Origin: Alphaproteobacteria bacterium
GTDB lineage: Bacteria; Pseudomonadota; Alphaproteobacteria; Thalassobaculales; Thalassobaculaceae
Direction: 5' to 3'
Assembly (NCBI GenBank): GCA_024742605.1
Contig: JANSYC010000025.1
Span: 1-53,447, forward strand
Length of the DNA: 53,447 nucleotides
Below the pieces are notes generated by a model that searched no databases, was not told the DNA's origin, and saw only the letters and a program-made list of their open reading frames with translations. Within the stretch, counting starts at the first letter, position 1. Each line of letters opens with the position of its first letter. Positions 31,394 through 52,614 of the stretch are shown here, piece by piece. Position numbers and translations under genes: made by a program.

Positions 31394-31611
31394 AGGGGAA
31401 ACGGCGATCGAGCCATTTGAGGAACGACCGGTTCGGGGTTTCAAAACGTTCACGGTCATCTAGCTCTGGTTCGATGACGACCTCAACTTGACGAGTAGCC
31501 CGCGTTTTGGATTTGGCATCGAGCCCCTTTCGTGACTCCCATATGGCCGACCCTTATAGTTCGTGGTCGAAAGCGCGTAGGCCATCGACCTGCGGCACAA
31601 TCCGGAACCCG

Positions 31612-33468
31612 ATGTCCCGCTTGCAACATGTCGCCCTCATCAGCCTCGTCATCATCGGAGTGTCCGCGCTTGGTTTCAGCGCAGGACCGGCCATGGCCCA
31701 GAGCCCGCCGGTCACTCCTCCGCCCCAGGGAAGCTCCCAGACCGCACCCACCGAGACAGCACGGGGCTCCTATGAGGTGAGTTTTGTCGGTTTGGAACAG
31801 GCGGGCGACCTGCGCGGATTGATGCAGGACAGTGCGGAACTGGTGAAGCAACTGGATGATCCGCCGCAGGCGCGCGCCGGGTTGCGGCGCCGTGCCGACG
31901 GCGATATCGAGCGCTTCGAGACTGCCGCTCACTCGCTCGGGTACTATGACGCGTCGTTTACCGTCGACATCAAGCCGGGGGTGGAGTTGTCGACCTTTGT
32001 GGTCACCGTAGAGGCCGAACCCGGGCCGCTCTATACCATCTCCGAAATCATCATCGAACCTGTTGATCATGAGATAGGTGGTTTGGAGATCCCGACCAAA
32101 CGGCTCGGTATCGCCATCGGGGATCCGGCGAAATCCGGTCCCGTCCTGGCGGCGGAGAGCAATATCGTCCGTTTCCTGCAGGAAAACGGCCGGCCGCTTG
32201 CCAAAGCCGTTGACCGCAAGGTGCTGGTCGACCACCGAACCCAGAACATGCAGGTGGCCTATCAGATTGACCCCGGGCCGGCGGCTCGGTTCGGGCTGGT
32301 GTCCATTGCCGGCGCCACTCAGGTCGACCCGACGTTCATCCTGCGCCGTTTGCCGTGGACCTATGGGGATCAGGCCAATGTTCAGGAACTTGAGGCCGGG
32401 CGTGACGAACTGATTGCTTCCGGCTTGTTCTCCTCCGCCGCCGTTTCTTTTGAGGAGGAGGTGGATGCAGACGGGCTGCTCCCGGTGATCGTGACCGTCA
32501 GCGAACGCAAACGGCGCAGCATCGGCGCCGGTGTGAGCTATTCCACATCGGAAGGGGCGGGATCGACCGCGTTCTGGACCCACCGCAACCTGTTTGGGGG
32601 CGCCGAGCGCCTGGATCTCCGCGCAAAATTCGGCCAGGTAGAGACCAGTGCCTCCGCGAGCCTGCGTGTTCCGGACGTTCTGTTCAACGACCAGGATTTG
32701 GTATTGTCCAGCAGCGCCATCTCGGAACAGACCGACAACTATGATGCCGTCCGTTATCTCGCTTCGGCCACTTTCGACCGTCGGCTCAGCGATGTGCTGT
32801 CGGTGGATTACGGGATCAGCTTCGAGCGTAGCAGGATCGAGGATGACGGCATGGAGGAGCAGTTCACGCTCGTCGGGCTGCCGCTGGGCGCCAGCATCGA
32901 TACCTCCGACGATCTGTTGAATCCGACCCGGGGCGGGCGGAGCCGGTTCACCTATACGCCTTATCTCGAGAACATCGGCTCCACGGTCGAGTTTCACGCC
33001 TTTTCGGCCCGACACAGCCAGTATCTCAAATTGGACAGTGAAGGCGACGTCGTGCTAGCCGGACGGGCCGCGTTCGGCTCGATCATGGGCGCCAGCACCT
33101 CGAACATACCGGCCGATAAGCGCATGTATTCTGGCGGTGCCGGTTCGGTAAGGGGCTATGCGCTACAGGCGATCGGCCCACAGGATTCGGCGAACGAGGC
33201 GACCGGCGGCCGGTCCAAGCTCGAATTCGGGGTGGAACTGCGGTGGCGGTTCTATGAGGATTTCGGCATCGTGCCGTTTGTCGACGCGGGGCAGGTCTAC
33301 GACAACGAGCTCCCGACATTTGACGAGGAGATGCAATGGGCGGCCGGACTGGGGTTCCGGTACTTCACGCCCATTGGTCCGATCCGTGCGGATTTCGCCG
33401 TTCCTCTGAACCCGAGATCGAGCGACGATTCCTTCCAGGTTTACTTCTCCCTCGGCCAGGCATTCTGA
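31612..33468 (+). CDS. tamA: Outer-membrane assembly protein TamA
   Basis: A 618-residue outer-membrane protein of the BamA/TamA (Omp85) superfamily. After a signal peptide (cleavage near PAMA-QSP, about residue 29-30) come three POTRA-type regions (about 50-295) and a C-terminal 16-strand beta-barrel. Barrel marks are GAGVSYSTSEGAG, the ending F in YFSLGQAF that serves as the BAM recognition signal, and RMYSGGAGSVRGYALQAIGP, the VRGY substrate lock of Omp85 proteins. The tamB gene follows after ten bases, which identifies this as TamA rather than BamA. The start at 31612 gives a standard signal peptide. Together TamA and TamB span the envelope and help place certain outer-membrane proteins or carry lipids. 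Confidence 0.95.
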   Translation: MSRLQHVALISLVIIGVSALGFSAGPAMAQSPPVTPPPQGSSQTAPTETARGSYEVSFVGLEQAGDLRGLMQDSAELVKQLDDPPQARAGLRRRADGDIERFETAAHSLGYYDASFTVDIKPGVELSTFVVTVEAEPGPLYTISEIIIEPVDHEIGGLEIPTKRLGIAIGDPAKSGPVLAAESNIVRFLQENGRPLAKAVDRKVLVDHRTQNMQVAYQIDPGPAARFGLVSIAGATQVDPTFILRRLPWTYGDQANVQELEAGRDELIASGLFSSAAVSFEEEVDADGLLPVIVTVSERKRRSIGAGVSYSTSEGAGSTAFWTHRNLFGGAERLDLRAKFGQVETSASASLRVPDVLFNDQDLVLSSSAISEQTDNYDAVRYLASATFDRRLSDVLSVDYGISFERSRIEDDGMEEQFTLVGLPLGASIDTSDDLLNPTRGGRSRFTYTPYLENIGSTVEFHAFSARHSQYLKLDSEGDVVLAGRAAFGSIMGASTSNIPADKRMYSGGAGSVRGYALQAIGPQDSANEATGGRSKLEFGVELRWRFYEDFGIVPFVDAGQVYDNELPTFDEEMQWAAGLGFRYFTPIGPIRADFAVPLNPRSSDDSFQVYFSLGQAF

Positions 33469-33478
33469 GGGGCGCGCC

Positions 33479-36400
33479 ATGTCAAGACGTCGCCGCGTTC
33501 TCAAACGCCTGGGATATGCGCTCCTCGCGCTCCTGTTCCTGCCATTCGTGCTGCTCGGCACCGCTCTGGTTCTGCTCGATACCGACTGGGCGCGGGAGAC
33601 ACTTGTGGCGGAAATCGAGGCGGCGACCGCTTCCGGCCCGGTCAGGGTCGAGATCGGGGCGATCGACTCCGGGCTGCCGGGTGACCTGGTCCTGAATGAT
33701 CTTGTGTTGGCCGACGAGAGCGGCGTGTTCGCGCGCGTCGGGCGGCTGTCCGTCGGATGGTCCCCACTGTCGGCCCTGTCCGGCGTGGTGTCGGTCGAGC
33801 AGGTGGCGATCGAGGATGCGTCCCTTGAGCGTCTGCCGGTCCTGCCGGAGCCGACGCAGCCCGAGCCCGTCACATCCTTGGAGCCGATCAGCCTTGAGTT
33901 TCCCGCGCCCCCGATCGGGTTGGAGCTGAAGTCCTTCACGGTTTCTTCGCTTCTGCTCGGCCCGAAGGTTGCCGGACAGGCGGCGGTCGTGACGGCGGAC
34001 CTAGCCGCGGCTGTCGATGGCAGTCGCGCGGCCCTGGCCGGAACCATCGGAATCGCCCGGCCGGACGGCGGACAGGCGCCAGGCACCGTCACGCTCGACC
34101 TTTCGGTTGATCCAAAGACTGGAACCCTGCGTGCCACCGTGGACGCGGCGGAGCCGGCGGGTGGTCTGCTGGCCTCCCTTGCCGATATCCCGGGCACGCC
34201 CGCCCTTGACCTCAAGGTCGACGGTGCGGGCACGCTGGCGGACTGGTCGGGACGCCTGGCGGGCGGCTTCGGGGCCGGGGCGCGGGCGGATCTGAACCTG
34301 AGCGTGCAACAGACCGGCGCGGATTTTGCGCTCGCTCTCGACGGGAGCGCGGAGGCCGGTGCATTCCTTCCGCCGGATATCGCTCCGCTGGTCGGGCCGA
34401 TGATGCCGGTTTCGGTGGCGGTCACGCTGGCCGAAGATGGTGCGGTCCAACTGACCAGGCTGAGTCTGAAACCCTCGATCGGCACCGTCGACGCGACAGC
34501 GCGGGTCTCATCTGACGGCGTCCCGGTCCAGGCGGATGCTGAAATCTGGGTGCCGGATCTGGGGCCAGTTTCGAAGCTTGCTGGCATCGCGCTCGCCGGA
34601 AATGTCGGCTTGAATTTCAAACTCGAGGATGAGGGGCGTAACGCTGTCCTGACCCTGTCCGGAACCCCGCTGGTCGACGGGCAGGCCGCCGAGGGATTTT
34701 CGGTGGTGCTCCGGATCGGTGCCGATGCGCCGCTGGCGGATCTTCCTGAGACCATCACAGTTTCGCTCGACGGTGGAGTCGACGTTCCACGTCTGCCCGA
34801 TCTCGATCTGGCAAGCCTTCTCGGTCCAAATCTGACGGTTTCCGGCAAGGCGAAGCTGAACGCTGAAACCTTGGATGCGCAGATCTCCAGTCTGTCGGTG
34901 GCCACCGATGGCGTCGGCATGTCCGTTACCGGACAGGTGGTATCTGGCAACCGGGTATCCGGTCGGGTCTCCGTCACCGCCTTCGATCTTGCGCGGTTTC
35001 GGACTTTCGCGGGAGTCGATCTCGCGGGTGTCGCCGATCTGGTGGCAGATGTGTCGGCGACCCTGGACCCGCTGTCGGTTCAGGTTGCGGCGGATCTGAC
35101 CGGACTTGGGGTAGAGACAGGACTGCCCGAAGTCGATGCGATCGTGGGACAGGAACCGACCCTGACCTCCGGGATCGCGCTGTCCGGCGATCAGTTTTCG
35201 GTGATCGGGCTTGAGGTGCGCGCGGCGCTTCTGTCGCTGACAGGCGATGTCGATCTGGATCTGGTGGCCGGCGATCTGTCGGGCCGCATCGACGGCGCCG
35301 TGCCGGATCTGGCACCGGTTGGCGAAGCGGTGGGAACCGGCTTGGCGGGAAATGCGGCCCTGGCCCTTGCGGTTGGCGGAACCCTGGAGGTGCCGGGCGT
35401 CTCTGCGTCCTGGCGGGTCGGTGATCTCAGGGTCGACGGCACTCCGATCGGCGAGCTCACCGGGGCGGCGACGGCCTCCGGACTTCCGAATGGCCCTGAA
35501 GGCACACTTTCGATGGATGTGGCTACCGCTCAAGGTCCGCTGGCCCTTGCGACCGATTATCGGCTTGAGGGGCAGACCCTGTCCGTTTCCGGGTTGTCCG
35601 TGTCCGGACTCGGGGTGTCGGTCGAAGGCGATGTGTCGGCGGATCTTGAGGGGCCGAGCGCCGATGGGCGCGTGACCCTCCGGTCCAGCGATCTGGCGAC
35701 CCTGGGGCGTGCTTTCGATGTCCCGCTCGGGTCCGGGTCGGCCGATCTTGCGGTCGCCCTCTCCGGAGAGAACGGCCAAAGTGCGGTGCTGGACGGAACC
35801 GTGTCCGGGCTGGAGGTGTCCGGTGAGGCGCCGGTGACGATCGACCGGGTCACGCTGGCGGCGGAACTGCGCGATCTGCTGACCGCACCTGCAGGTACCG
35901 CAACCGTCCGTATCCTCTCGCTGGCGACCGGCGATACTGCGCTCGACCAGATCACGCTCGCAGCGAACAGCGATGGTGAGCGGGCGACTGTAGATCTGAA
36001 TGTGACCGGCGAAATGGGAGCCGGGCGCGCGGCCAAACCCCTGCGTCTTTCTATGACGGCCGATGCACGGCTGAAGGCGCAGCCGGTCGCGATCACGATC
36101 TCCAACCTGGAAGCCTCTCAGGGCTCGGCCTCGGAAACCGACGGTGCGGTCGTGCTCCTGGCCCGTCTGCGCGATCCGCTTGCGATCACATTTGGGTCCG
36201 CGGTGGCCTTTGACGATCTGGCTCTGCTGATCTCGGCGGGCGGGGAAAGCGGCGTTCTGTCGGGTAAGGGCCGTCTCGACCCGGCCAGACTTGACGTGGC
36301 CTTGGCGCTGCGGGATCTGCCGGCCGATCTGGCACGGGTTGCGGACCCCAACCTGGAGCTTCAGGGCACTGTAAACGGAGACATCTCGGTTCAGGGAACG

Positions 36401-37960
36401 GTCGAGAACCCCAATGTCGAGGTCCGGGTGGGGACGGCCGGTATCGCCAGCGCTGACCCGGAGTTCGCAGAGGTTCCGCCGCTGGTTGTCGATCTCGTTG
36501 CGACTTTGCGGGACCGAGCCGTGGAGAGCCGTTTCACCGCGTCCGTCGGCGGCGGCGTAACCGTCGATGCGAAGGCCGACCTTGCCCTGGCACCCGGTGG
36601 GGCCGGAGCGCCGCCGGTCTTCGACCCCTCCGGGCGGATCGACGGGACGCTCAAGATCGCTGCTGATCTGAAGCAGATGAACGCGTTCCTGCCGCTGGAT
36701 GACGGGCTTATCGACGGCGACGTGCGAGTGGATGTGGCGATCGCGCGGACCTTGGCCGATCCCGAGGTGAGTGGGACGGCCCGTCTTGATGGAGGCGCTT
36801 TGCAGCATCCCGGCTACGGCATCGCCTACCGGGATATCGTCCTCCTGGCGGAGGGGTCGGCGGATCGTTTGGTGATCCGGACCCTGACCGCCTCGTCGGC
36901 GGCCGGCGGCAGCATCGAGGGATCCGGCTACATCTCTCTCGACATGGATGATCAGGCCCCGGCGGATATTCAGCTTACCGGCCGGGATTTCACGGCCGTT
37001 GAGATGGACGTGGCGACGGTCCGACTGAGCACGGACCTTGCACTGACCGGTCAACTGCCGACCTACCTCTTGTCGGGACAGATCACGGTCGGTCGGTCCG
37101 AGATCAGAATTCCGGATGCCCTGCCGTCCAGTGTCACCACCATTGAGGTCACCGAGATCGGACGGGACGGCCAAATCCTCAATCCACCCCCGGACGAGGA
37201 GCAGGCTGCTCTTGAAAACCCGGAGCAGGCGAATGCCCCCCTGGAGTTGGACCTGGTGATCGATGTGCCGAACAAGGTGTTTGTGCGGGGCCGGGGATTG
37301 GACAGCGAATGGGGCGGCAGGCTCACCGTCACCGGTCTGGCCGATGCGCCCGAGGTGAACGGACAGATCGCCGTCCAACGGGGGACGTTCGATGCCTTGG
37401 GGCAGAACTTCATCTTCAACAAAGGCCTCGTGGTGTTCGACGGCGCCCCGCCGGACAATCCCAGGCTCGACATGGATATCAGTGCGGATGTCGCCGATAT
37501 CGTGGCGACGGTGCTGGTGAGCGGGTCGGCGCAGAATCCGGACATTCGGTTGAGCAGCGACCCGGCCCTGACCCGAGAGGAAATTCTGTCGCGCTTGCTG
37601 TTCGGCCAGGCCAAAGCCGAGTTGACGCCGTTGCAGGCTCTGAGACTCGCCCAATCTGCCGCCGTTCTGTCCGGAAACTTTGGGAGCGGGCCAGGGATCA
37701 CCGATCAACTGCGCACGACGCTCGGTGTCGATACGATCGATGTGAATACCGGTGATGCGGGTGAAGACGGCGGTGGCGCGTCCCTGTCGGTTGGGAAGTA
37801 CATTGCCGAGGGCGTTTTTCTGCGGCTTGAGCAAGGCCTGTCCAGCGCCGAGAGCCGGGCTGTGGTCGAAGTCGAGATCACCGATCACATCACAGTGGAA
37901 ACCGATGTCGGGGCCGATTCCGCCAGCCGTGCCGGGGTGAACTGGAAGCTCGACTACTAA
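33479..37960 (+). CDS. tamB: Translocation/assembly module protein TamB (DUF490)
   Basis: A 1493-residue AsmA-like envelope protein. A single N-terminal membrane helix (about 13-33) anchors it in the inner membrane; the rest is a long periplasmic beta-taco with hydrophobic groove, made of repeated blocks such as LSGxxLSVxGLSVSGLGV. The C-terminal 360 residues are the DUF490/TamB domain, with ILSRLLFGQAKAELTPLQALRLAQ and an ending VNWKLDY that matches the usual contact with TamA. The length is within the TamB range. Start ATG at 33479 lies ten bases after the tamA stop. TamB-family proteins are now viewed as inner-to-outer membrane phospholipid bridges as well as assembly factors. Confidence 0.95.
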   Translation: MSRRRRVLKRLGYALLALLFLPFVLLGTALVLLDTDWARETLVAEIEAATASGPVRVEIGAIDSGLPGDLVLNDLVLADESGVFARVGRLSVGWSPLSALSGVVSVEQVAIEDASLERLPVLPEPTQPEPVTSLEPISLEFPAPPIGLELKSFTVSSLLLGPKVAGQAAVVTADLAAAVDGSRAALAGTIGIARPDGGQAPGTVTLDLSVDPKTGTLRATVDAAEPAGGLLASLADIPGTPALDLKVDGAGTLADWSGRLAGGFGAGARADLNLSVQQTGADFALALDGSAEAGAFLPPDIAPLVGPMMPVSVAVTLAEDGAVQLTRLSLKPSIGTVDATARVSSDGVPVQADAEIWVPDLGPVSKLAGIALAGNVGLNFKLEDEGRNAVLTLSGTPLVDGQAAEGFSVVLRIGADAPLADLPETITVSLDGGVDVPRLPDLDLASLLGPNLTVSGKAKLNAETLDAQISSLSVATDGVGMSVTGQVVSGNRVSGRVSVTAFDLARFRTFAGVDLAGVADLVADVSATLDPLSVQVAADLTGLGVETGLPEVDAIVGQEPTLTSGIALSGDQFSVIGLEVRAALLSLTGDVDLDLVAGDLSGRIDGAVPDLAPVGEAVGTGLAGNAALALAVGGTLEVPGVSASWRVGDLRVDGTPIGELTGAATASGLPNGPEGTLSMDVATAQGPLALATDYRLEGQTLSVSGLSVSGLGVSVEGDVSADLEGPSADGRVTLRSSDLATLGRAFDVPLGSGSADLAVALSGENGQSAVLDGTVSGLEVSGEAPVTIDRVTLAAELRDLLTAPAGTATVRILSLATGDTALDQITLAANSDGERATVDLNVTGEMGAGRAAKPLRLSMTADARLKAQPVAITISNLEASQGSASETDGAVVLLARLRDPLAITFGSAVAFDDLALLISAGGESGVLSGKGRLDPARLDVALALRDLPADLARVADPNLELQGTVNGDISVQGTVENPNVEVRVGTAGIASADPEFAEVPPLVVDLVATLRDRAVESRFTASVGGGVTVDAKADLALAPGGAGAPPVFDPSGRIDGTLKIAADLKQMNAFLPLDDGLIDGDVRVDVAIARTLADPEVSGTARLDGGALQHPGYGIAYRDIVLLAEGSADRLVIRTLTASSAAGGSIEGSGYISLDMDDQAPADIQLTGRDFTAVEMDVATVRLSTDLALTGQLPTYLLSGQITVGRSEIRIPDALPSSVTTIEVTEIGRDGQILNPPPDEEQAALENPEQANAPLELDLVIDVPNKVFVRGRGLDSEWGGRLTVTGLADAPEVNGQIAVQRGTFDALGQNFIFNKGLVVFDGAPPDNPRLDMDISADVADIVATVLVSGSAQNPDIRLSSDPALTREEILSRLLFGQAKAELTPLQALRLAQSAAVLSGNFGSGPGITDQLRTTLGVDTIDVNTGDAGEDGGGASLSVGKYIAEGVFLRLEQGLSSAESRAVVEVEITDHITVETDVGADSASRAGVNWKLDY

Positions 37961-42885: not shown

Positions 42886-43842
42886 TCACACCATGTTCGA
42901 ATCCGGATTGGGTCCTGGCACGCGGGAGGAGTGGTGTAAGACGATACGTCCGTTCGCCTCCGCCCCCGGTCCGGCCGTCGGAAGAATTCCAAACGTGTAG
43001 CGTGCCGGCGTGGTCACCGGCTGGCCGGTCACCTGATCATTCCAGAAGAAGGTATAGAGCCCGCTCACGACCATCGGCCGCCCCGGCAGACGCTGAAGTT
43101 CCTGATTGAAGCTGACCGTCAGGCCCGGATTGGCGGTCAGCCTGGCAAAATATCTCTGTATCTGGTCGGGGCCGTTCAGCGGGGCGCCCTCGGCGGTAGC
43201 GAGCAACAGCGCGTTCGGCGCGTAGAGCCTCAGTACCGCTGGAACGTCCCGCGCGCTCAGAGCGGCCGCCCAGGCCGCCAGCACGCCACCAACGTCCGCT
43301 CCGCCGACCTGCGGGTCCGCTGCCGCCGCATCGAACGCCGCGGGTTGCAGTTGAGGGGCGACCAAGGCCGATTGAGCGGGAGTTCCAATCTGCGCCGTGC
43401 CGGGGCCCACGTCGGGGACGGCCCCTCCCGGAGGCGGCGGAATACGGTTGAACCAGGACCGGTCACGCCAAATCCAGCCGGCACGCGCGGGCTGAACGCC
43501 AGCTTGCTGGGCCAATTGCTTAACCCGGCTTTCGGCTTCCGCGCGTGGGATGCGTCCGCCCGCCTGATTCTGATAAGCGTCCACGACGGATTGGAAATCC
43601 GCCACGCTGATGCGCCCCCTTTGGTTCGCTCTGGCTTCGAGGAGGAAGGTGGCTTCGTCGGCGATCTGGCTCTCCAGCACCAGATCGTTACGGCGCGCCG
43701 CGTTCATGATGGCCGAGCGGGAATCGTCCAATGACAGACCGAACCCGTCCAACCCGGCACGCATCAGTGCGCGCTCGTCCTCCAGCGTCACAAACCGACG
43801 GCCGAGACGCAGCGAGCCCATGTAGTCTTCGAAGCGCTGCAT
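42886..43842 (-). CDS. SnoaL/NTF2-like C-terminal domain protein
   Basis: A 318-residue protein. The C-terminal 130 residues look like a SnoaL/NTF2 alpha+beta cone: GVLAAWAAALSARDVPAVLRLYAPNALLLATAEGAPLNGPDQIQ is the family's opening, here with FNQELQRLPGRPMVVSGLYTFFW for the later strands. It may be a CaMKII-association-domain relative, which bind small molecules or act as isomerases. The N-terminal 110 residues are helical with charged EDERALMRAGLDG and a repeated RVKQLAQQAG segment; a Pro/Ala/Gln-rich linker joins the two. No signal peptide is present. It lies downstream of the ABC fusion gene by 62 bases on the same strand, so it may be part of that operon. Confidence 0.72.
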   Translation of the reverse strand: MQRFEDYMGSLRLGRRFVTLEDERALMRAGLDGFGLSLDDSRSAIMNAARRNDLVLESQIADEATFLLEARANQRGRISVADFQSVVDAYQNQAGGRIPRAEAESRVKQLAQQAGVQPARAGWIWRDRSWFNRIPPPPGGAVPDVGPGTAQIGTPAQSALVAPQLQPAAFDAAAADPQVGGADVGGVLAAWAAALSARDVPAVLRLYAPNALLLATAEGAPLNGPDQIQRYFARLTANPGLTVSFNQELQRLPGRPMVVSGLYTFFWNDQVTGQPVTTPARYTFGILPTAGPGAEANGRIVLHHSSRVPGPNPDSNMV

Positions 43843-43904: not shown

Positions 43905-45518
43905 CTAGAACGTCGCTTCAAGCCTGGCCGAAACGTATCTGAACTCGATCAGGGTCAGAACCGACTGCCAGGTGAGTACGAAGGACAGTCCCCAGATCAG
44001 CGACTGTGCGATGCCCTTGTTGATATCGATGATGTCGGCCTTGGGCCGATAGCCGAAGTATAGGGCGATCGCCGATGCCCCCAGGATAGACGGGATGGTT
44101 TTGGCCAGAATCCAGTCGGTTCCGATCAGCATCACCTGACCCGGCGGCCAGAGCCTCTGAAAAAACTGATCCCGCCACATATAGGTCGAGGACTCGGGGA
44201 ATATATAGGCCCAGGTCTCCATCGCGACCCACGCCGTCAGCGCCACCGACGCCGCGGCGAGCACGATGGCCGCCACAGAGGATGACAGGAGGACCATCAG
44301 ATTGATGTAGATCCGGTGCGGGACGTTTAGATTCCGCATGGATTTGATCTGGTCCGAATAGACTTTGTGTCCGACATCGGCCCCGATCAGAGCCGAGTTG
44401 CGGATACTGATCAGAACCGCTGCGATCAGCGGCGCCATCACCCGAAGTTCACTATAGGCCAACCCGGCCAGGGCGTCGGAATGGATGATTGGCATCAGGT
44501 AGTCCCGGAACGGCAGGTACATGAAAATGAACCAGGTTGCGACAAACCCGACGATGACGCTGCCCAAACCGACGAAAAGCAGCGCCGAGGGTGCGAAACA
44601 CAACTCCCAGAGATATCCCAGCAGGAACCGAACGGCCCAGGACAGCCGCCAGGTTCCCGGTGTCGTGCGGATCTCGCGCCGAGCCTCCGAACCCTGGCTC
44701 TGCGTCTCAGCCGCCAAGGCTTCAGCGTGCGGCGTCTCCAAACGCAAGTGATCCGGGGGATCCGCGGTCTCGATCCGTTCCAGTGCCGCTTCGATGGCGC
44801 CAGTGTCCAATGGCACTTCGACCAGATCGTGGAGATTTGGGTCAAGGATCAGAACCCGGTCGGCGACGTCGATCAGGTGGCGAAAATGGTGGGCGACCAC
44901 GATTACGGGAATCCCAAGGTCCCGCGCCAGATCCCGTACCAGAATACTCAGCCGCCGGGAGGCGGAGACATCCAGCCCGGAATTCGGTTCGTCCAGGAAC
45001 AGCACCGGATGATTGCCCATCAGGGTGCGCGCGATTGCGATCCGCTGCCGTTGGCCGCCGCTCGCGGCGTTCACCGGCAGGGACCGGTTGATGTCCATCA
45101 GAAGTCCGTCTATCGCGGCCTTCAGATCTGCGCCGATCGCTGGGTTGTGGGCCGATGCGATCTCCAGATTCTGACCGACGGTGAGATCGTCGAAAAGGGC
45201 GAAGTTCTGGAACACGACGCCCCCGACCGTGACGCGGCCGCGCGCCAGGTCATGGCTGCGTCCGTCGAAGGAGACGGTGCCAGAGGCCTCCCAACCGCCT
45301 TCCCGGGTTTCAATCGCGCCTGACAAGAAGTTCACCAGGGTCGACTTTCCGGACCCGCTTGGGCCGGCCAGGATCACGATCTCACCGGGCTGGAGCGACA
45401 GGTCGACATTGTGGAGCAGCATGCGCCCGCCGCGTTGCCGCACCGAGAGGGATGAGACGACGAGGACCGGGAGGGCCGAAGGGTCGGGCATGTCTGCTCC
45501 GGGGGCACCGTCGCTCAT
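43905..45518 (-). CDS. Fused ABC ATPase and MlaE-like permease
   Basis: A 537-residue single chain. Residues about 18-245 are an ABC ATPase: Walker A GPSGSGKST (52-60), signature ASGGQRQ (152-158; Ala replaces the usual Leu), Walker B VLFLDEP (172-178) and H-loop His210. Residues about 295-537 are a membrane domain that follows the MlaE pattern: an APLIAAVLIS helix, the ELG-like segment ADVGHKVYSDQIKSM that meets the ATPase, then NVPHRIYINLMV and a late KTIPSILGA...YFGYRPK. MlaE and MlaF are normally separate proteins of the Mla phospholipid transporter. The partner protein and a small PH-like protein lie just upstream. The product is likely an inner-membrane lipid transporter. Confidence 0.85.
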   Translation of the reverse strand: MSDGAPGADMPDPSALPVLVVSSLSVRQRGGRMLLHNVDLSLQPGEIVILAGPSGSGKSTLVNFLSGAIETREGGWEASGTVSFDGRSHDLARGRVTVGGVVFQNFALFDDLTVGQNLEIASAHNPAIGADLKAAIDGLLMDINRSLPVNAASGGQRQRIAIARTLMGNHPVLFLDEPNSGLDVSASRRLSILVRDLARDLGIPVIVVAHHFRHLIDVADRVLILDPNLHDLVEVPLDTGAIEAALERIETADPPDHLRLETPHAEALAAETQSQGSEARREIRTTPGTWRLSWAVRFLLGYLWELCFAPSALLFVGLGSVIVGFVATWFIFMYLPFRDYLMPIIHSDALAGLAYSELRVMAPLIAAVLISIRNSALIGADVGHKVYSDQIKSMRNLNVPHRIYINLMVLLSSSVAAIVLAAASVALTAWVAMETWAYIFPESSTYMWRDQFFQRLWPPGQVMLIGTDWILAKTIPSILGASAIALYFGYRPKADIIDINKGIAQSLIWGLSFVLTWQSVLTLIEFRYVSARLEATF

Positions 45519-46627
45519 TTAACGGCGACCGTGAGAGGGGTGAAGCGCGTGAGGATGTCGGACGGCGGAACCTGATCCATCGGCAGGATCACCGCCACCA
45601 TCCTCGGACGACGAAGCAGGATGTAGCGGATGATCCGAACCGCCAGGGTGTCCGGTTTCATCTCGGGGCCACGGCCGACGACGTGGCTGAAAATCTCCGT
45701 GATCGCCTGGGCGGTTTCCTGCTCCAGGACCCGCATCTCCGACCGGAAGGCCGGATCGGCCGTGATGTCGTCGATCAGGCCCTGGATGCGCGGATCGGAG
45801 CTGACGCGTTGGATCAGAGCGTCGCTGTAGGTAATGCCGAAGCGCCAGATCCGAGGGTCGGCGGCGGCATCGATGATCTGATTGCTGACGCTCCTCAGGA
45901 ACGTCTCATCCGAGAGGACTTCGGTTGCGGCGCGACCCAGCGGGCTCATGTCGATCTCGCCGTTTGACAGGAAGTCCCTGATCCCTGCCCAACTCGGGGT
46001 CAGCATCTCAAGCGCAGCCTGTCGGACGCGCGGCATGACCATTGTCGCCAGGATGTCAGATAGCCGGGGGGCGTATTCGGTCCTGAGGATCTCGGTCGCG
46101 CGCTGGGTCGCGAGGCTCATTGCCGGGTCACGGTTGATGTCTGCATAGGCATCCGCAACAATGTCTTGGAGCCGGGCGCGATAGGTTTGGTTGAATGCCG
46201 GGGTCTGAACGATCGCAACGACCCGATCCAACGTGAGGCTCGCTAGGCCTTCCAGTTCCGTAGAAATGTCTTGCTTCGACGTCGTCGGTACGAGCGCCCA
46301 GAGTGCGCTGGCATTGGTCGGCAGCAAGACAACTCGGGAGTTGGCGACGGGCTCAACCGTCATGTCGGGAAACAGCGAAACTTCCAATGCATCGGGTCCG
46401 AGACCGGTCACGCGCCCGATCGCGAGCGATGAGCCGTCGCTACGCAGGCGATAGGCGGGATAGCCCCGAATGTCATTGATTTCGCGCGACCATGTGGGAC
46501 GGTCGAAACGTTCCGCCTGTCCGGCCGTTTTGAAGGGCGATCCCGAGAACGCGTAGACCCCGGTGAGCGCGAAGCCGCAGACAATCGCGATCGTTAGCGC
46601 ATACTCTGACGAACTGCCGTGTCGCAT
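45515..46627 (-). CDS. Membrane protein of the Mla-like operon, possible MCE-like segment
   Basis: A 370-residue protein with one N-terminal membrane helix (about 9-28) and a large periplasmic part. Residues about 57-115 resemble an MCE strand set: YRLRSDGSSLAIGRVTGLG, LEVSLFPDMTVEPVANSRVV, then TNASALWALVP, in the order of MlaD proteins, but the match is weak and diverged. After it come long helices (TLDRVVAIVQTPAF, LQDIVADAYADI, LSDILATMVMPRVRQAALEML), as in the helical tail of MCE proteins. Its stop overlaps the ABC fusion start by four bases, so they are translated together. The start at 46627 sits five bases after the 139-residue gene. I infer an MlaD-like partner. Confidence 0.7.
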   Translation of the reverse strand: MRHGSSSEYALTIAIVCGFALTGVYAFSGSPFKTAGQAERFDRPTWSREINDIRGYPAYRLRSDGSSLAIGRVTGLGPDALEVSLFPDMTVEPVANSRVVLLPTNASALWALVPTTSKQDISTELEGLASLTLDRVVAIVQTPAFNQTYRARLQDIVADAYADINRDPAMSLATQRATEILRTEYAPRLSDILATMVMPRVRQAALEMLTPSWAGIRDFLSNGEIDMSPLGRAATEVLSDETFLRSVSNQIIDAAADPRIWRFGITYSDALIQRVSSDPRIQGLIDDITADPAFRSEMRVLEQETAQAITEIFSHVVGRGPEMKPDTLAVRIIRYILLRRPRMVAVILPMDQVPPSDILTRFTPLTVAVK

Positions 46628-46631
46628 TGGG

Positions 46632-47051
46632 CTAAGCAGATCCTTCTGCGGGCTTGCTGGTCTCGGTCGCGGCGCCCATCCGGTGGTGGGAGGGGGCCGC
46701 AATCATCGTTCGCAGGGCATCGTGCAGCCTGTGGAAGGCCCGGCGGTCGAACAGGCTCAGCATGTGAACATTCTCGAGAAGGGCATCGGATAGAGTCCGC
46801 CCGCTCAACTGCGAGCATCCGGCATAGCGGACAACCATCAAAGGAGGCAGGAACAGCGATGTCACAAGTCCGACCCCGGTGATGCGGTCGATAGGAATTC
46901 TGCTGATGATCGCCAGTCCGTGACCACCCAACAGCTCCTGCAGTTCACACAGCTCTTCACTGCGTTCGATAACCAGACAGCTGGGGTAGAGGGTCACCCG
47001 GCTCAGCGGCCCTCGGTCCTTGGCAATTACCGTCTCACTGGCGTGATGCAT
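46632..47051 (-). CDS. Small protein with PH-like fold, first gene of the Mla-like operon
   Basis: A 139-residue protein without signal peptide. The order of strands and the closing helix resemble bacterial PH domains: SRVTLYPSCLVIERSEEL, ISRIPIDRITGVGLVTSL, LPPLMVVRYAG, then MLSLFDRRAFHRLHDALRTM as the C-terminal helix. This is pattern recognition, not a family match. The hydrophobic stretch 60-75 may touch the membrane. Its stop is four bases before the start of the 370-residue protein, so it is the first gene of the three-gene set. Ribosome site is weak. Confidence 0.7.
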   Translation of the reverse strand: MHHASETVIAKDRGPLSRVTLYPSCLVIERSEELCELQELLGGHGLAIISRIPIDRITGVGLVTSLFLPPLMVVRYAGCSQLSGRTLSDALLENVHMLSLFDRRAFHRLHDALRTMIAAPSHHRMGAATETSKPAEGSA

Positions 47052-47954: not shown

Positions 47955-48344
47955 ATGACGAGATTACTGGTCTTGGCGATTGCCCTGTTGGCAGGCTCGA
48001 TCCTGCCGGCGGCGGCCCAACAATCTGGCTCGGCGAGTACGGCTCCGCTACCACCGACCGTCGTTCAGAACATTGCTCCGATTGAGGAAGAGCCGATGAT
48101 CAGCCCGCTGACGGGCGGAGTGATCGGTGCCGCGTCCGGTGTGCTTGCCTTGAACGTGTTTACAAGCGGCTTGGTTCTGACGCCGTTGATCGGCGCGACG
48201 GCCTCGAACGTGCTCGGGGGCGCGTGGATGGGCTCGCTGGCGCTCTTGCCGGCAAGTGCGGAGTCCCTGTTTCACACGACGGCGGTGGCGGCCGTCGCAT
48301 TCACGAGCGGTGCGATCGGCTACACCGTTGCGGCGCGTGAGTAG
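47955..48344 (+). CDS. Small glycine-zipper membrane protein 3, 129 aa
   Basis: Signal peptide MTRLLVLAIALLAGSILPAAA with cleavage near residue 21, a polar Ser/Pro-rich part, then a long hydrophobic, glycine-spaced region from ISPLTGGVIGAASGVLALNV to GAIGYTVAARE. Gly/Ala zippers of this type insert in membranes or oligomerise. It resembles the next gene in TGGVIG and overall layout. A GGGGAGA site precedes the start. No family name is assigned. Confidence 0.72.
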   Translation: MTRLLVLAIALLAGSILPAAAQQSGSASTAPLPPTVVQNIAPIEEEPMISPLTGGVIGAASGVLALNVFTSGLVLTPLIGATASNVLGGAWMGSLALLPASAESLFHTTAVAAVAFTSGAIGYTVAARE

Positions 48345-48447
48345 CGGTTGAAGTTCTCCTTGGGCCGATTTGAAGGATCAGCCGAACGATTTGATGGTCC
48401 TTTCAGTTTTATGCTACCCTGGTGGGAAATCATGGGGAGTGGATGTC

Positions 48448-48810
48448 ATGCTCAAGAAAATCTCAAATCTGGCTCTGGCCGTGGCTTTCGCTGTGGGTCT
48501 CATGTTCGCCACAACGGTCGATGTTCAGGCCCAGCAGGCACCTGAAGCGGTTCAGGAGGCTGTCGAGGGCTTTGATGGCTATCGTGCCCTTGCCATCACC
48601 GGTGGCGTGATCGGCGGTGCAATCGCTGCTGCTGTTGTGACGGATGGTCTCATCATCCCGGTCTACGCGATGGCGACCGGAGCGGGCATGCCGAGCCTCG
48701 GCATGGGTGTCATTACCGGGCCGAGTTACGCCTTCTTCCGTGGCAGCATGCGTCTGCTCGGTGCTGTGAGCGGCGCGATGTTCGCCGACGCTTGGTATAC
48801 CGGTCAGTAA
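48448..48810 (+). CDS. Small glycine-zipper membrane protein 4, 120 aa
   Basis: Signal peptide MLKKISNLALAVAFAVGLMF with cleavage after VQA (about residue 28), a short polar part (APEAVQEAVEGFDG), then LAITGGVIGGAIAAAVVTDGL and further glycine-spaced hydrophobic helices ending in FADAWYTGQ. TGGVIG and the layout match the preceding protein, which supports paralogy. GGGGAG precedes the start at 48448. A strong terminator follows. Confidence 0.74.
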   Translation: MLKKISNLALAVAFAVGLMFATTVDVQAQQAPEAVQEAVEGFDGYRALAITGGVIGGAIAAAVVTDGLIIPVYAMATGAGMPSLGMGVITGPSYAFFRGSMRLLGAVSGAMFADAWYTGQ

Positions 48811-48935: not shown

Positions 48936-48965
48936 GATGGTCACATATCCGATGGTCACATATCC
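48936..48965. repeat. Perfect 15-base tandem repeat GATGGTCACATATCC
   Basis: Two head-to-tail copies (48936-48950 and 48951-48965) lie after the terminator and run into the 3' end of the minus-strand gene that follows (which stops at 48956). The core is shared with the direct repeats at 6180-6216. Confidence 0.85.
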
Positions 48966-49420
48966 GATTGTGGGGTCATGTAGACGTCATAGAGCCACAT
49001 GGTCGCTACGCCCGCCCCGACGGCGGCCGATACTGCGGTTGTGGTGACCGGCATGGCCGCGAACATAAACCCGGTCATCGCCCCCATCGCGATGTACATG
49101 TTTCGCATGGCGGTATCCTCCGCGGCATGTCCCGCCGGTACTTGCCGGTCCCCGCGATGGGCCGAGTGATCCTGCTCCGGCGTGGTCGTCGGTGCCGTGG
49201 ACTGGGCCAGTCTAAATGCGGTCCCTGAACCCGAACGCACATCTCGGAATGTCGGGTTGCTGGAAACGGAGGACGCGGCACCCTGCGCGATCGCCTGTTC
49301 GCTCCCGCTTTGCCGGAGACTGACCTCCGCCGCGAGTGCCTGGATCGGCATTGTGACCGCGACCAAGCCCAACATGCCCGTACCGACCAGCGCGCAAGTC
49401 ATCCGTTTGCAGAACATCAT
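48956..49420 (-). CDS. Small exported membrane protein 5, 154 aa
   Basis: Signal peptide with helix LVGTGMLGLVAVTMPIQALA, cleaved near residue 30, a long polar Ser/Thr/Gln/His-rich middle, then a hydrophobic, Gly/Ala-rich C-terminal helix pair AMGAMTGFMFAAMPVTTT and AVSAAVGAGVATMWLYDVYM. The layout matches the two plus-strand glycine-zipper proteins it converges with, separated by their terminator. The start at 49420 (a tandem ATG ATG) has GAAGGA ahead. No family name is known to me. The tail is altered by the 15-base repeat, whose second copy overlaps the stop. Confidence 0.7.
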   Translation of the reverse strand: MMFCKRMTCALVGTGMLGLVAVTMPIQALAAEVSLRQSGSEQAIAQGAASSVSSNPTFRDVRSGSGTAFRLAQSTAPTTTPEQDHSAHRGDRQVPAGHAAEDTAMRNMYIAMGAMTGFMFAAMPVTTTAVSAAVGAGVATMWLYDVYMTPQSDM

Positions 49421-49514
49421 CCATTGTCCTTCAAGTGCTCGATGAAACTGAAACGCCAAAACCAAGGATAGAACCCGGCTTCCAAGCAAGCAAAGAAAAA
49501 CCGACAGAGACACG

Positions 49515-50497: not shown

Positions 50498-51415
50498 ATG
50501 GCCGTTACGGCAGTTCCCCTGACTGACTTTCTCGGGGCGCAGCTCGAAGGAATCGACCTGTCGCGTCCGATTGATCGGCAGACCAAGGCCGAGGTGCTTG
50601 ACCTCTTTCACGCGCATCAGGTTGTCGTGATCCGCGGTCAGGAGATCTCTCCAGAGGGATTTATTCGGTTTGCCGAACTGTTCGGCGCAATCGAGCCGTT
50701 CTTCATCAGTTCCTACAATCATCCCGAACACCCCCAGATTTACGTGCTCTCCAATGTTCGGAAGGATGGTAAGCCCATCGGGAGGGACGGAGCCGGAACC
50801 CATTGGCATAGCGACAGCACGTTCACCGAGAAACCCAGCAGCGTGACACTGCTGCATGGCGTGGAAGTTCCGGCGCGCGGCGGGGATACTCTGTTCGTGA
50901 ACACCTACGATGCCTACGACAGACTGGACGACGCAACCAAGGCGCTGATCGACGGGCGCCGGGCGATCCATCGGTATCAGCAGAAAGAGTTCGTGTTCTC
51001 CGGTGACCGGGAGGTCAGCGCGGAAGAACGGGCTGAGATCGAAGCCCTGAAGGCCAGACGTCTGGCGGAGGCGGCCGAGGGCGGACCATCGCCGACCGCG
51101 AAGCGCAGCAACACGGTTCCTGATCGGCTGCAGCCCGTGGTGCGCACCCATCCGGTGACCGGCCGAAAGGCGCTGTATCTGAACGACGAGATGACGGTCG
51201 GGATCGAAGGTCTGGCGGACGATGTCGCCGTACCGCTGTTGCGTCGCCTCTGCGACGAAGCGACCAAACCCGAACACGTCCTCCGGTTCAAATGGCAGCC
51301 CGGTGATTTGGTCGCGTGGGACAATGCGTCGGTGATTCATACCGCGACCTTCACCCCGCCCGATCTGCCCAGGGTCATGCATCGGCTCACCATCGAGGGG
51401 AGTGCGCCGGTATGA
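50498..51415 (+). CDS. TauD/TfdA family 2-oxoglutarate-dependent dioxygenase
   Basis: A 305-residue non-haem iron enzyme of the TauD/TfdA family. The facial triad is His104-x-Asp106 in THWHSDST and the distal His281 in ASVIHTATF; Arg296 in MHRLTI, 15 residues on, binds 2-oxoglutarate. Such enzymes hydroxylate sulfonates, phenoxy acids, carnitine precursors or other small molecules in the cytoplasm. A good AAGGGAG site sets the start at 50498. Its stop overlaps the start of the ABC_sub_bind gene by four bases (ATGA), so the two are co-translated and probably serve the same compound. Confidence 0.93.
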   Translation: MAVTAVPLTDFLGAQLEGIDLSRPIDRQTKAEVLDLFHAHQVVVIRGQEISPEGFIRFAELFGAIEPFFISSYNHPEHPQIYVLSNVRKDGKPIGRDGAGTHWHSDSTFTEKPSSVTLLHGVEVPARGGDTLFVNTYDAYDRLDDATKALIDGRRAIHRYQQKEFVFSGDREVSAEERAEIEALKARRLAEAAEGGPSPTAKRSNTVPDRLQPVVRTHPVTGRKALYLNDEMTVGIEGLADDVAVPLLRRLCDEATKPEHVLRFKWQPGDLVAWDNASVIHTATFTPPDLPRVMHRLTIEGSAPV

Positions 51416-52614
51416 ACCGCGGACTTCTTTGGCTGTGCCTGACGGTCGGGTTCTTTGTGCTAGCCGTTCATGATCTGTCGGCTCAAGACCGTCCAAATCT
51501 CGATTGGCTTGTCTATGATCAGGCCACGCGGGACGACTACGCCATCACGGTCGGCGCCGAGGCCTCGGAGCGGAACCTCGCGGTTCCCCATGACCGTGAC
51601 CCTCAGAAACGGGTTCTGCTGCTGATTCCAAGTCCATCGGTTGAGGCGTATTCGCTTGCGGTGAACACGATCCTGCGCGGGTTCAACGACGCGAACCTGC
51701 CGACCCGTTTCGACATCTGGTACTATAACAAGGACGAAGATCTCGCCATGGAAGCGCTGCGGTGGGCCTATGCCCAACCGGTGGATCTGATCATGTCGGT
51801 GGGCTCTTCCGCCACCAGCTTTCTGACGGAGCATCATACCGGACATCGGATTCCGGCCGTGACCAGCGCATCAAAAGACCCTGTCGCCTCCGGTCATTTG
51901 ACTGACGGCGCTAGCGGCAGCGGGACCAATATCGCCTATACTTCTATAAACGTCGAAACGGATACGCTGGTCGCCTATCTGCGGAGGCTGGTGCCGGGTC
52001 TGACGACGATCGGCCTGCTTTATGCGACCGATAATTCCAGTGCTGTCCTGACCCAGGTCGATCCGTTGCGGGCGGCGGCCGAGCGGCTCGATCTGAACAT
52101 CGTCGATATCACCGTCAGCGGTTCCGAGACCGCGTCCGAGGAACTGGAAGCCGGTCTGCCGGTAGGCATTGATGTCATGCGGCGGCTTGACCCGCAGCTA
52201 TCGAACAGCGTGCTGTTGGTCACCGGGTCGACCTCCGTCTACGAACGGATTGATCTGATCAACCGGCACGCGGCCGATCTCCCGGTGATTTCGATGCTTC
52301 CGGACATCGTTCGGGTGGGCGACGAGTCCGCGCTTCTGTCGATTGGGGTAAACCTGACAAGCGCGCTCAAATTGTCGACGGTCTATGCGCTTGATGTGAT
52401 CACCGGCAAGGCACAGCCAGGGGTGCTCCCGGTGGGGAGCGTGTCCTCGCCGGATCTCGCGATCAATTTCCGGGTGGCCCATCGGGTTGGGATCAAGATC
52501 CCGTTCTCGTTCCTGGAGTCCTCGACTTTCGTTTACGACCTGGAAGGGATTGAGGTTGTAGCCTTTGGCCAGAGGGTGGCGGAGCGGACACCGCAAGCAA
52601 CGGATCAGAAATGA
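51412..52614 (+). CDS. ABC_sub_bind family substrate-binding protein
   Basis: A 400-residue exported protein with a signal peptide ending near LSA-QD (about residue 24). It matches the PF04392/ABC_sub_bind (TrpX-like) layout: two similar Rossmann-like halves, the first with RVLLLIPSPSVEAYSLAVNTI and a central LIMSVGSSATSFL, PAVTSASKDPVASG, the second with TTIGLLYATDNSSAV and VLLVTGSTSVYERI. These are periplasmic binding proteins or sensor-like components. No ABC permease or ATPase is in the remaining window, so it may be an orphan or a regulatory input. It overlaps the dioxygenase gene upstream and a membrane-anchored gene follows 107 bases downstream. Confidence 0.88.
   Translation: MNRGLLWLCLTVGFFVLAVHDLSAQDRPNLDWLVYDQATRDDYAITVGAEASERNLAVPHDRDPQKRVLLLIPSPSVEAYSLAVNTILRGFNDANLPTRFDIWYYNKDEDLAMEALRWAYAQPVDLIMSVGSSATSFLTEHHTGHRIPAVTSASKDPVASGHLTDGASGSGTNIAYTSINVETDTLVAYLRRLVPGLTTIGLLYATDNSSAVLTQVDPLRAAAERLDLNIVDITVSGSETASEELEAGLPVGIDVMRRLDPQLSNSVLLVTGSTSVYERIDLINRHAADLPVISMLPDIVRVGDESALLSIGVNLTSALKLSTVYALDVITGKAQPGVLPVGSVSSPDLAINFRVAHRVGIKIPFSFLESSTFVYDLEGIEVVAFGQRVAERTPQATDQK

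Follow-up and report, generated by a model that had tools for sequence, protein, structure and literature searches.

A single-chain ABC ATPase and MlaE-type permease in an alphaproteobacterial operon: a probable additional envelope lipid transporter with an unusual partner protein

The window analysed here is a whole stretch of 53,447 nucleotides (contig JANSYC010000025.1 of assembly GCA_024742605.1, positions 1 to 53,447 of the forward strand), from an alphaproteobacterium of the family Thalassobaculaceae. The element under study is a three-gene operon, whose last gene encodes an ATP-binding cassette (ABC) ATPase and a membrane domain of the MlaE type within one chain. The three genes lie head to tail on the minus strand: the first gene is followed, after a gap of four bases (46628-46631), by the start of the second, here called the partner gene, whose stop codon overlaps the start of the fused gene. 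Layout, coordinates, overlap and gap are as given in a preliminary description of this DNA, and the features are collected in Table 1.

Table 1. Features of the three-gene operon, in window coordinates. Residue numbers refer to the respective product.
Feature	Position	Strand	Assignment
First gene, 139 aa	46632-47051	-	Conserved family of unknown fold
Partner gene, 370 aa	45515-46627	-	
Fused gene, 537 aa	43905-45518	-	ABC half-transporter: ABC ATPase ~15-240, linker, divergent MlaE-family permease ~294-537
ATPase half, residues 1-245	44784-45518	-	Catalytic motifs intact; own clade outside sampled MlaF
MlaE-like membrane half, last 245 residues	43908-44642	-	Motif RNSALIGADVGHKVYSDQIKSMRNLNVP
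Partner residues 34-116, beta domain with invariant Gly71	46280-46528	-	Possible cryptic MCE-type domain (beta1-beta5)
Partner stop and fusion start, four-base overlap	45515-45518	-	

The Pfam domain ABC_tran is found at residues 35-179 of the fused protein (91.1 bits), and the ATPase motifs previously ascribed to the N-terminal half were located there: Walker A at residues 52-60, the ASGGQ signature at 152-156, D176/E177 of Walker B and H210/H211 of the H-loop; Q104 is present as well. Residues K58, Q104, S153-G155, D176, E177, H210 and H211 are present in all of the 31 sequences compared, which represent 30 loci of other genomes and the window.

Of the 106 further ATPase matches that the window's genome contains, the best (36%) is the gene adjoining the MlaE of contig C103, taken as the MlaF that belongs to it; the ATPase beside the MlaE of contig C140 ranks sixteenth. 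A tree was built from 49 ATPase domains, namely 12 fusion members chosen from the 31, 10 sequences taken as MlaF and 27 other paralogs. The fusion ATPases group in one clade (support 100/99) on a long stem, and the 10 MlaF in a separate one (99/99), with the fusion members outside. A constraint keeping the fusion members together with all 10 MlaF was not rejected (approximately unbiased test, p-AU 0.123); one keeping them with the C103-type MlaF, a group chosen after inspection of the tree, was rejected (p-AU 0.0154). No MlaF model is found among the best 25 of 208 NCBIfam rows for the fused protein. Because of the separate clade and of the lack of MlaF among the best NCBIfam rows, MlaF membership is not demonstrated; MlaF may be used as a fair functional comparison for the ATPase half, and to this extent the likeness is partly supported. 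The MlaF-MlaE fusion initially proposed is therefore retained for the joining of motor and permease in one chain and for the MlaE half, and only partly supported for the MlaF identity.

The membrane half is recognized by PF02405 (MlaE) at residues 311-523, with 36.5 bits against a cut-off of 22.5, over profile positions 11-211 of 212; a second search gave 39.2 bits. The two ordinary MlaE proteins of the window's genome reach 252 and 272 bits with the same model. The permease motif RNSALIGADVGHKVYSDQIKSMRNLNVP, which starts from R373, aligns with the canonical MlaE stretch GRxGAAMAAEIGTMRVTEQIDALxTLSTNP. With a profile built from eight diverse relatives of the fused protein (A2), six sequences of the PDB were matched within E 10, five of them at 0.013 or better. 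A. baumannii MlaE is the best (1.7e-5), E. coli MlaE is found at 0.013 and a Yrbe1a chain at 0.7, while the remaining three are named only as permeases. All six are of the MlaE/YrbE type, and the entries listed for them, those of the three permeases included, also hold MCE chains. By hhalign, 201 columns of the family align with 19 canonical alphaproteobacterial MlaE (E 2.8e-6), and neither the Pfam nor the PDB profile search matched a permease of any other class. Judged from these matches, the membrane half is a very divergent member of the MlaE family, in agreement with the assignment made earlier. No STAS/MlaB Pfam domain was found in the first two genes, nor among the best 25 of 30 families for the fused protein.

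Full-length relatives of the fused protein were found in nine of the 61 genomes searched, the window's own included, and all nine are among the 36 genomes of its family; in two of the nine family genomes the relative is in two pieces. In a class-wide sample, 7 of 385 genomes match at E 1.3e-27 or better, and the other 52 matching genomes lie at 8.3e-7 or weaker (18-28 bits), as ordinary MlaE would give. A GTDB genome scan identified the fused arrangement at 31 loci of other genomes, designated below by L numbers: 11 named Azospirillum, three from Roseospira, two Rhodospira loci from metagenome-assembled genomes (MAGs), two from Thalassobaculum and relatives, as well as loci from Magnetospirillum, Terasakiella, Skermanella and MAGs with possibly wrong names. 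The wider occurrence that the preliminary description had proposed to look for was thus found, and the recurrence at 31 loci confirms that the arrangement is not due to chance.

At 30 of these loci, Walker A and the membrane half are in one frame; at the remaining one, L084, the contig begins after Walker A and the ATPase residues are still in frame. That two genes were joined by an error of sequencing or assembly finds no support at the junction. In one relative, L064 (= G022:C13:133830-135393), the frame breaks at about residue 405 and resumes elsewhere, possibly because of a frameshift in the MAG, but this break falls inside the permease half. The single frame seen at 30 loci leaves practically no room for an artefact, and this explanation was rejected. 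Since the arrangement is conserved in other genomes, and the matches of the membrane half are of the MlaE type only, neither of the two doubts initially raised, an artefactual fusion of two frames or a better fit to another permease class, is borne out. A full-text search of open-licence PubMed Central returned no description of a fused MlaF-MlaE in titles and abstract starts, and domain databases may list the combination of ABC_tran and MlaE automatically; the available portion of PMC10665443 contains neither "fused" nor "fusion".

The partner gene is found directly upstream of the fused gene at 25 of the 31 loci, and for 23 of these 25 a start of the fused gene that overlaps the partner stop by four bases is possible. 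At L084 and L085 the contig edge cuts off the partner position. Of the 398 genomes in a phylum sample, 2 have a match to the partner profile. Searched up to E 1, Pfam and NCBIfam give no match for either the partner or the first gene of the window's operon, and the partner has no significant PDB sequence match; a similarity to GerD (E 0.025) was taken as helical noise and discarded.

The structure of the partner was predicted with AlphaFold2 from 26 sequences, with a mean predicted local distance difference test score (pLDDT) of 81.4 and a predicted TM-score (pTM) of 0.57. The model features a membrane helix at residues 6-28, strands at 38-42, 56-61, 67-76, 80-85 and 97-103, a helical domain at 106-337 and two further strands at 343-349 and 366-369. 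In Mce4A, according to the text available from PMC8420772, strands beta1-beta5 occupy residues 40-106, and the pore-lining loop lies between beta5 and beta6, followed by beta6 and beta7. The partner is therefore predicted to have a single N-terminal membrane helix and, after it, seven strands that follow the MCE order, a helical stretch of about 230 residues standing where the pore-lining loop would be. No significant fold match was obtained for the full-length model (lowest E 0.033 in Foldseek, highest Z 7.0 in VIA): the listed rows cover the helical part, the coiled-coil matches were dismissed as helical noise, and MCE chains are absent among the best 50 rows. As helices fill the match list, the absence of MCE chains from it says little.

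Residues 34-116 were also excised and predicted alone (pLDDT 77.5). Among solved structures, VIA-align ranks first for this domain, though below significance, the MCE domain of Mce4A from M. tuberculosis (7ai2_D, Z 4.9, root-mean-square deviation 4.1), with 67 residues aligned, positions 1-74 of the model falling on 38-108 of the chain; in Foldseek the same chain is seventh by E-value and has the highest TM-score, 0.52, of the best 50 rows. The distances between the centres of the first five strands are 18.5, 13.0, 11.0 and 17.5 in the partner versus 19.0, 7.5, 14.5 and 18.5 in Mce4A, and that of the last pair is 21.5 versus 27.5. Strand 97-103 vanishes in the excised model, an effect that we ascribe to the removal of its presumed pairing strand, 343-349. 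Gly71 is invariant in all 26 partners, and a forced, weak profile alignment puts it on the invariant MCE glycine with the Thalassobaculum-type and full sets, not with the Azospirillum-type one. The reading of the partner that we prefer is that of a cryptic MCE protein: its beta domain would be a very divergent MCE domain, with the pore-lining loop that joins strands 5 and 6 enlarged to a helical domain of about 230 residues. Because no sequence comparison rises above background, this reading is put forward tentatively, at somewhat less than even confidence.

Several results weigh against an MCE domain in the partner. None of the 26 members matches the Pfam MCE model (PF02470) at E up to 0.1, and hhalign comparisons with 28 MCE domains remain at background for the whole partner, for the beta domain by clade and for the beta domain with the C-terminal strands. 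Reversed and column-shuffled MCE profiles were used as controls. In each of the six by-set comparisons the reversed profile equalled or exceeded the real one, and the real score was matched by 37, 24 and 12 of 60 shuffles for the beta domain (Thalassobaculum-type, Azospirillum-type and all rows, respectively) and by 36, 35 and 17 of 50 when the C-terminal strands were added; as a positive control, one partner clade compared with the other gave E 9.7e-13. With every profile comparison at background, MCE identity by sequence was rejected. On the structural side, nine other VIA rows, including telomerase-module and ATP-synthase chains, lie within 1 Z of Mce4A, the Foldseek match to it is not significant (E 0.55), the strand spacing agrees for some pairs only, and the crystal matched is a domain-swapped dimer (PMC8420772, partial text).

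The profile comparisons at background, together with the lack of significant Pfam, NCBIfam and PDB sequence matches and of a significant fold match for the whole model, fit a different origin, in which the partner is unrelated to MCE and represents a new helical adaptor, anchored by a single helix, of an MlaE system free of MCE proteins. We regard this as a real possibility, slightly less likely than the MCE reading; against it stand the strand order, the single insertion at the pore-lining-loop place, the Mce4A domain as top VIA row, the same position after the membrane helix and the MCE chains present in the entries of the matched permease structures. Such a system could still transport lipids, and would differ in the MCE detail only. 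Alternatively, the mostly helical partner and an FtsEX/RipC entry among the weak VIA rows (Z 5.6) may recall an ATP-driven transducer of signal or force similar to FtsEX, with the helical domain acting on another envelope protein; as the permease is of the MlaE type, and VIA rows of this size are common for helical models, this appears very improbable.

Two observations on the partners of single loci may be added. Those of L068, L077 and L080 share a Cys within HQCG and a second Cys 21 residues further on, which might form a disulphide in the beta domain. A gene of about 427 codons directly precedes and overlaps the partner gene in Magnetospirillum (L077:2796-4082) and Terasakiella (L080:2850-4130); the L077 copy has no Pfam match.

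The family of the first gene was found at 12 of the 31 loci, besides the window. For 12 of these 13 members, L060 being left out, no PDB match was obtained at E up to 10, and Pfam produced scattered rows involving single members, the best at E 0.088. By eye only, the product may be PH-like.

The genomic surroundings were analyzed for other genes of lipid transport. MlaA genes (PF04333, 79-148 bits), selected by a three-sequence model and each confirmed by Pfam, lie within 6 kb of the operon at 9 of the 31 loci: six of the 11 from Azospirillum (L066, L067, L070, L072, L078, L086), Magnetospirillum L077 and the MAG loci L084 and L085. This count is a lower bound, as some contigs end early. In the 13 loci of the counted genomes, 5 such cases were seen versus about 0.08 expected from 41 matches in 14 genomes (about 88 Mb); the Azospirillum loci are related, and hence the independent cases are fewer. 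At L066 the order is partner, fused gene, a protein with a mitofilin domain (below cut-off) and MlaA, the last two overlapping by four bases. In all of the 14 genomes checked, MlaA and MCE genes are also found outside the operon. The window's genome holds elsewhere two canonical MlaE, two MCE matches, one MlaA (contig C131) and one MlaC and, on this gene content, the fused operon is an additional system. The earlier suggestion that a single chain replaces MlaE plus MlaF accordingly applies within the chain, not to the genome, which keeps its canonical set.

Some members of the family have a gene for an MlaA-type lipoprotein near the operon, which speaks for an exchange of phospholipid with the outer membrane. 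A substrate other than phospholipid, such as another envelope lipid, a hopanoid or a lipoprotein, carried by a reused MlaE fold, would agree with the strong divergence of the permease (36.5-39.2 bits, versus 252-272 for the canonical MlaE of the same genome). It would also agree with the residues of the putative lipid site. In E. coli MlaE, as reported in the available portion of PMC7790496, Arg97, Glu98, Lys205 and Asp250 form a buried charged cluster, in which Arg97 contacts the lipid phosphate, and alanine mutants of the four residues grow unaffected in the presence of SDS and EDTA. The position of this Arg97 (PMC7790496, partial text) is not Arg in all relatives of the fused protein. With MlaA close by at the loci listed above, we consider a non-phospholipid substrate unlikely.

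We favour the interpretation of the operon as an additional, apparently undescribed MlaE-type envelope lipid transporter, with the partner in the place of MlaD; leaving the MCE detail aside, we hold it to be rather probable. Complex formation, stoichiometry, lipid substrate and direction of transport are what we infer. Two fused chains would make up a complete inner-membrane ABC transporter, with two ATPases and two MlaE-like permeases. The partner, anchored beside it by one predicted membrane helix, would replace MlaD in the periplasm: its beta domain would be seated on the permease, while the helical domain, extending into the periplasm, would guide the lipid. If the partner is an MCE protein, six copies arranged in a ring would send out a helical conduit, or tunnel, from inside their own pore. 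Phospholipid, or another lipid, could thus be moved between the two membranes.

Other observations are less easily reconciled with this transporter. Within the stretch covered, the partner was undetected at 4 of the 29 loci able to show one (L075, L076, L079, L082), and the only other genome of the window's genus searched, 87% complete, has no full-length match to the fused protein. MlaA was not found near the operon in the window's clade, where several loci end early. In the charged cluster, with equivalences established by eye, the Glu98 and Asp250 positions are changed in the fused family, and at that of Arg97 the Arg is confined to rows of the Thalassobaculum type and is missing from three divergent rows of the A2 profile; the Lys position is kept in 29 of 31 sequences, the other two having gaps.

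The surroundings of the operon show further recurrent genes. At the four loci with undetected partner, which are of the Roseospira/Rhodospira type, a gene that by eye looks LysR-type adjoins the fused gene, before it in L076 and L082 and after it in L075 and L079. In Magnetospirillum (L077:6780-7643, 30.7 bits) and Terasakiella (L080:6767-7633, 36.0 bits), the gene that directly follows the fused one encodes a C-terminal domain of the mitofilin (Mic60) type, above the Pfam cut-off of 27.4; weak matches below the cut-off, scoring between 19.9 and 22.9 bits (19.9, 20.8, 22.9), are found at three Azospirillum loci (L066:6834-7667, L072:6817-7674 and L078:6806-7675). About 2.4 kb past the fused gene, Terasakiella carries on the other strand (L080:9118-11345, minus strand) a pqiB-type gene with three MCE stretches and a gene for a pqiC-type lipoprotein. 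Genes similar to DUF6524, sometimes two, surround the operon at L056, L058-L062, L064, L068, L070, L071, L074, L077, L078, L083 and L086; they were found by a home-made model, with Pfam confirmation for the L056 copy only.

In the window itself, the gene directly downstream of the fused one (42886-43842, minus strand) encodes a C-terminal SnoaL/DUF4440 domain (Pfam). The N-terminal part of its product matches a home-made model of a family of about 150 residues ending in W-[FY]-x-x-I, which is also matched just after the fused gene at seven other loci (L056-L061, L064). Three small hydrophobic proteins rich in Gly and Ala, mutually alike by eye, are encoded at 47955-48344, 48370-48810 and 48956-49513; the first two have no Pfam match. 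Near the window end, a binding protein of the ABC_sub_bind type (51316-52614, plus strand) scores 56.1 bits with Pfam, and is below the cut-off of the NCBIfam TrpX model. The tamA-tamB pair, indicated earlier as an adjacent envelope lipid route about 6 kb away, does exist, as an Omp85 gene (31507-33468) and TamB (33479-37960), both on the plus strand. Being 5.9 kb off, on the opposite strand and with other genes between, it offers no evidence of a link to the operon, and the association was rejected.

The routes by which lipids pass between the two membranes of Gram-negative bacteria are still being charted, and some marine and soil bacteria carry an extra, apparently undescribed fused pump that looks built for lipid movement. 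Searches by MlaD-type sequence, or by MlaE and MlaF as separate neighbours, would overlook or misread this family. Should the partner be a hidden MCE protein, such systems would be more numerous than counted, MCE proteins invisible to sequence searches would exist, and growth of the pore loop would be a second way to build a periplasm-spanning conduit, with a new architecture for MCE conduits. If it is not, there would be MlaE-type transporters needing no MCE ring, which would change the view of what is essential to the mechanism.

The system resembles MlaFEDB of E. coli, A. baumannii and P. aeruginosa in the MlaE-family permease with its cytoplasmic motif, in the ABC ATPase, in a partner from the same operon that is predicted to be periplasmic with a single helix and, for some relatives, in the nearby MlaA. 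It differs in that ATPase and permease form one chain, the ATPase falls outside the sampled MlaF clade, no STAS/MlaB and no MlaD (PF02470) are recognizable by sequence, and the predicted strands of the partner are interrupted by a large helical domain. Brucella Mpc (PMC12436622) and the elongated MlaD of Veillonella (PMC10665443) are, in the accessible parts of these reports, MlaE-type systems with fewer components, in which the long helical part of the partner is proposed as a tunnel. Unlike here, both have, by the same sources, separate MlaE and MlaF and a recognizable MCE domain, and their helical part comes after that domain, whereas in the present partner it is predicted to interrupt the beta domain. 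If the MCE reading is right, the partner would be similar to LetB and PqiB in lining its pore with an extended segment that links strands 5 and 6; pore-lining loops of that type measure 16-27 residues (PMC8420772, partial text), versus about 230 predicted here.

Mycobacterial Mce1 (YrbE/Mce) also has an MlaE-type permease, and 8fed chains are matched by the A2 profile. Its ATPase is a separate protein. The single-helix MCE proteins of Mce1 carry helical domains of about 200 residues, according to the available text of PMC8420772. There, in contrast to the operon described here, six different Mce proteins are present, and the helical domain follows the MCE domain.

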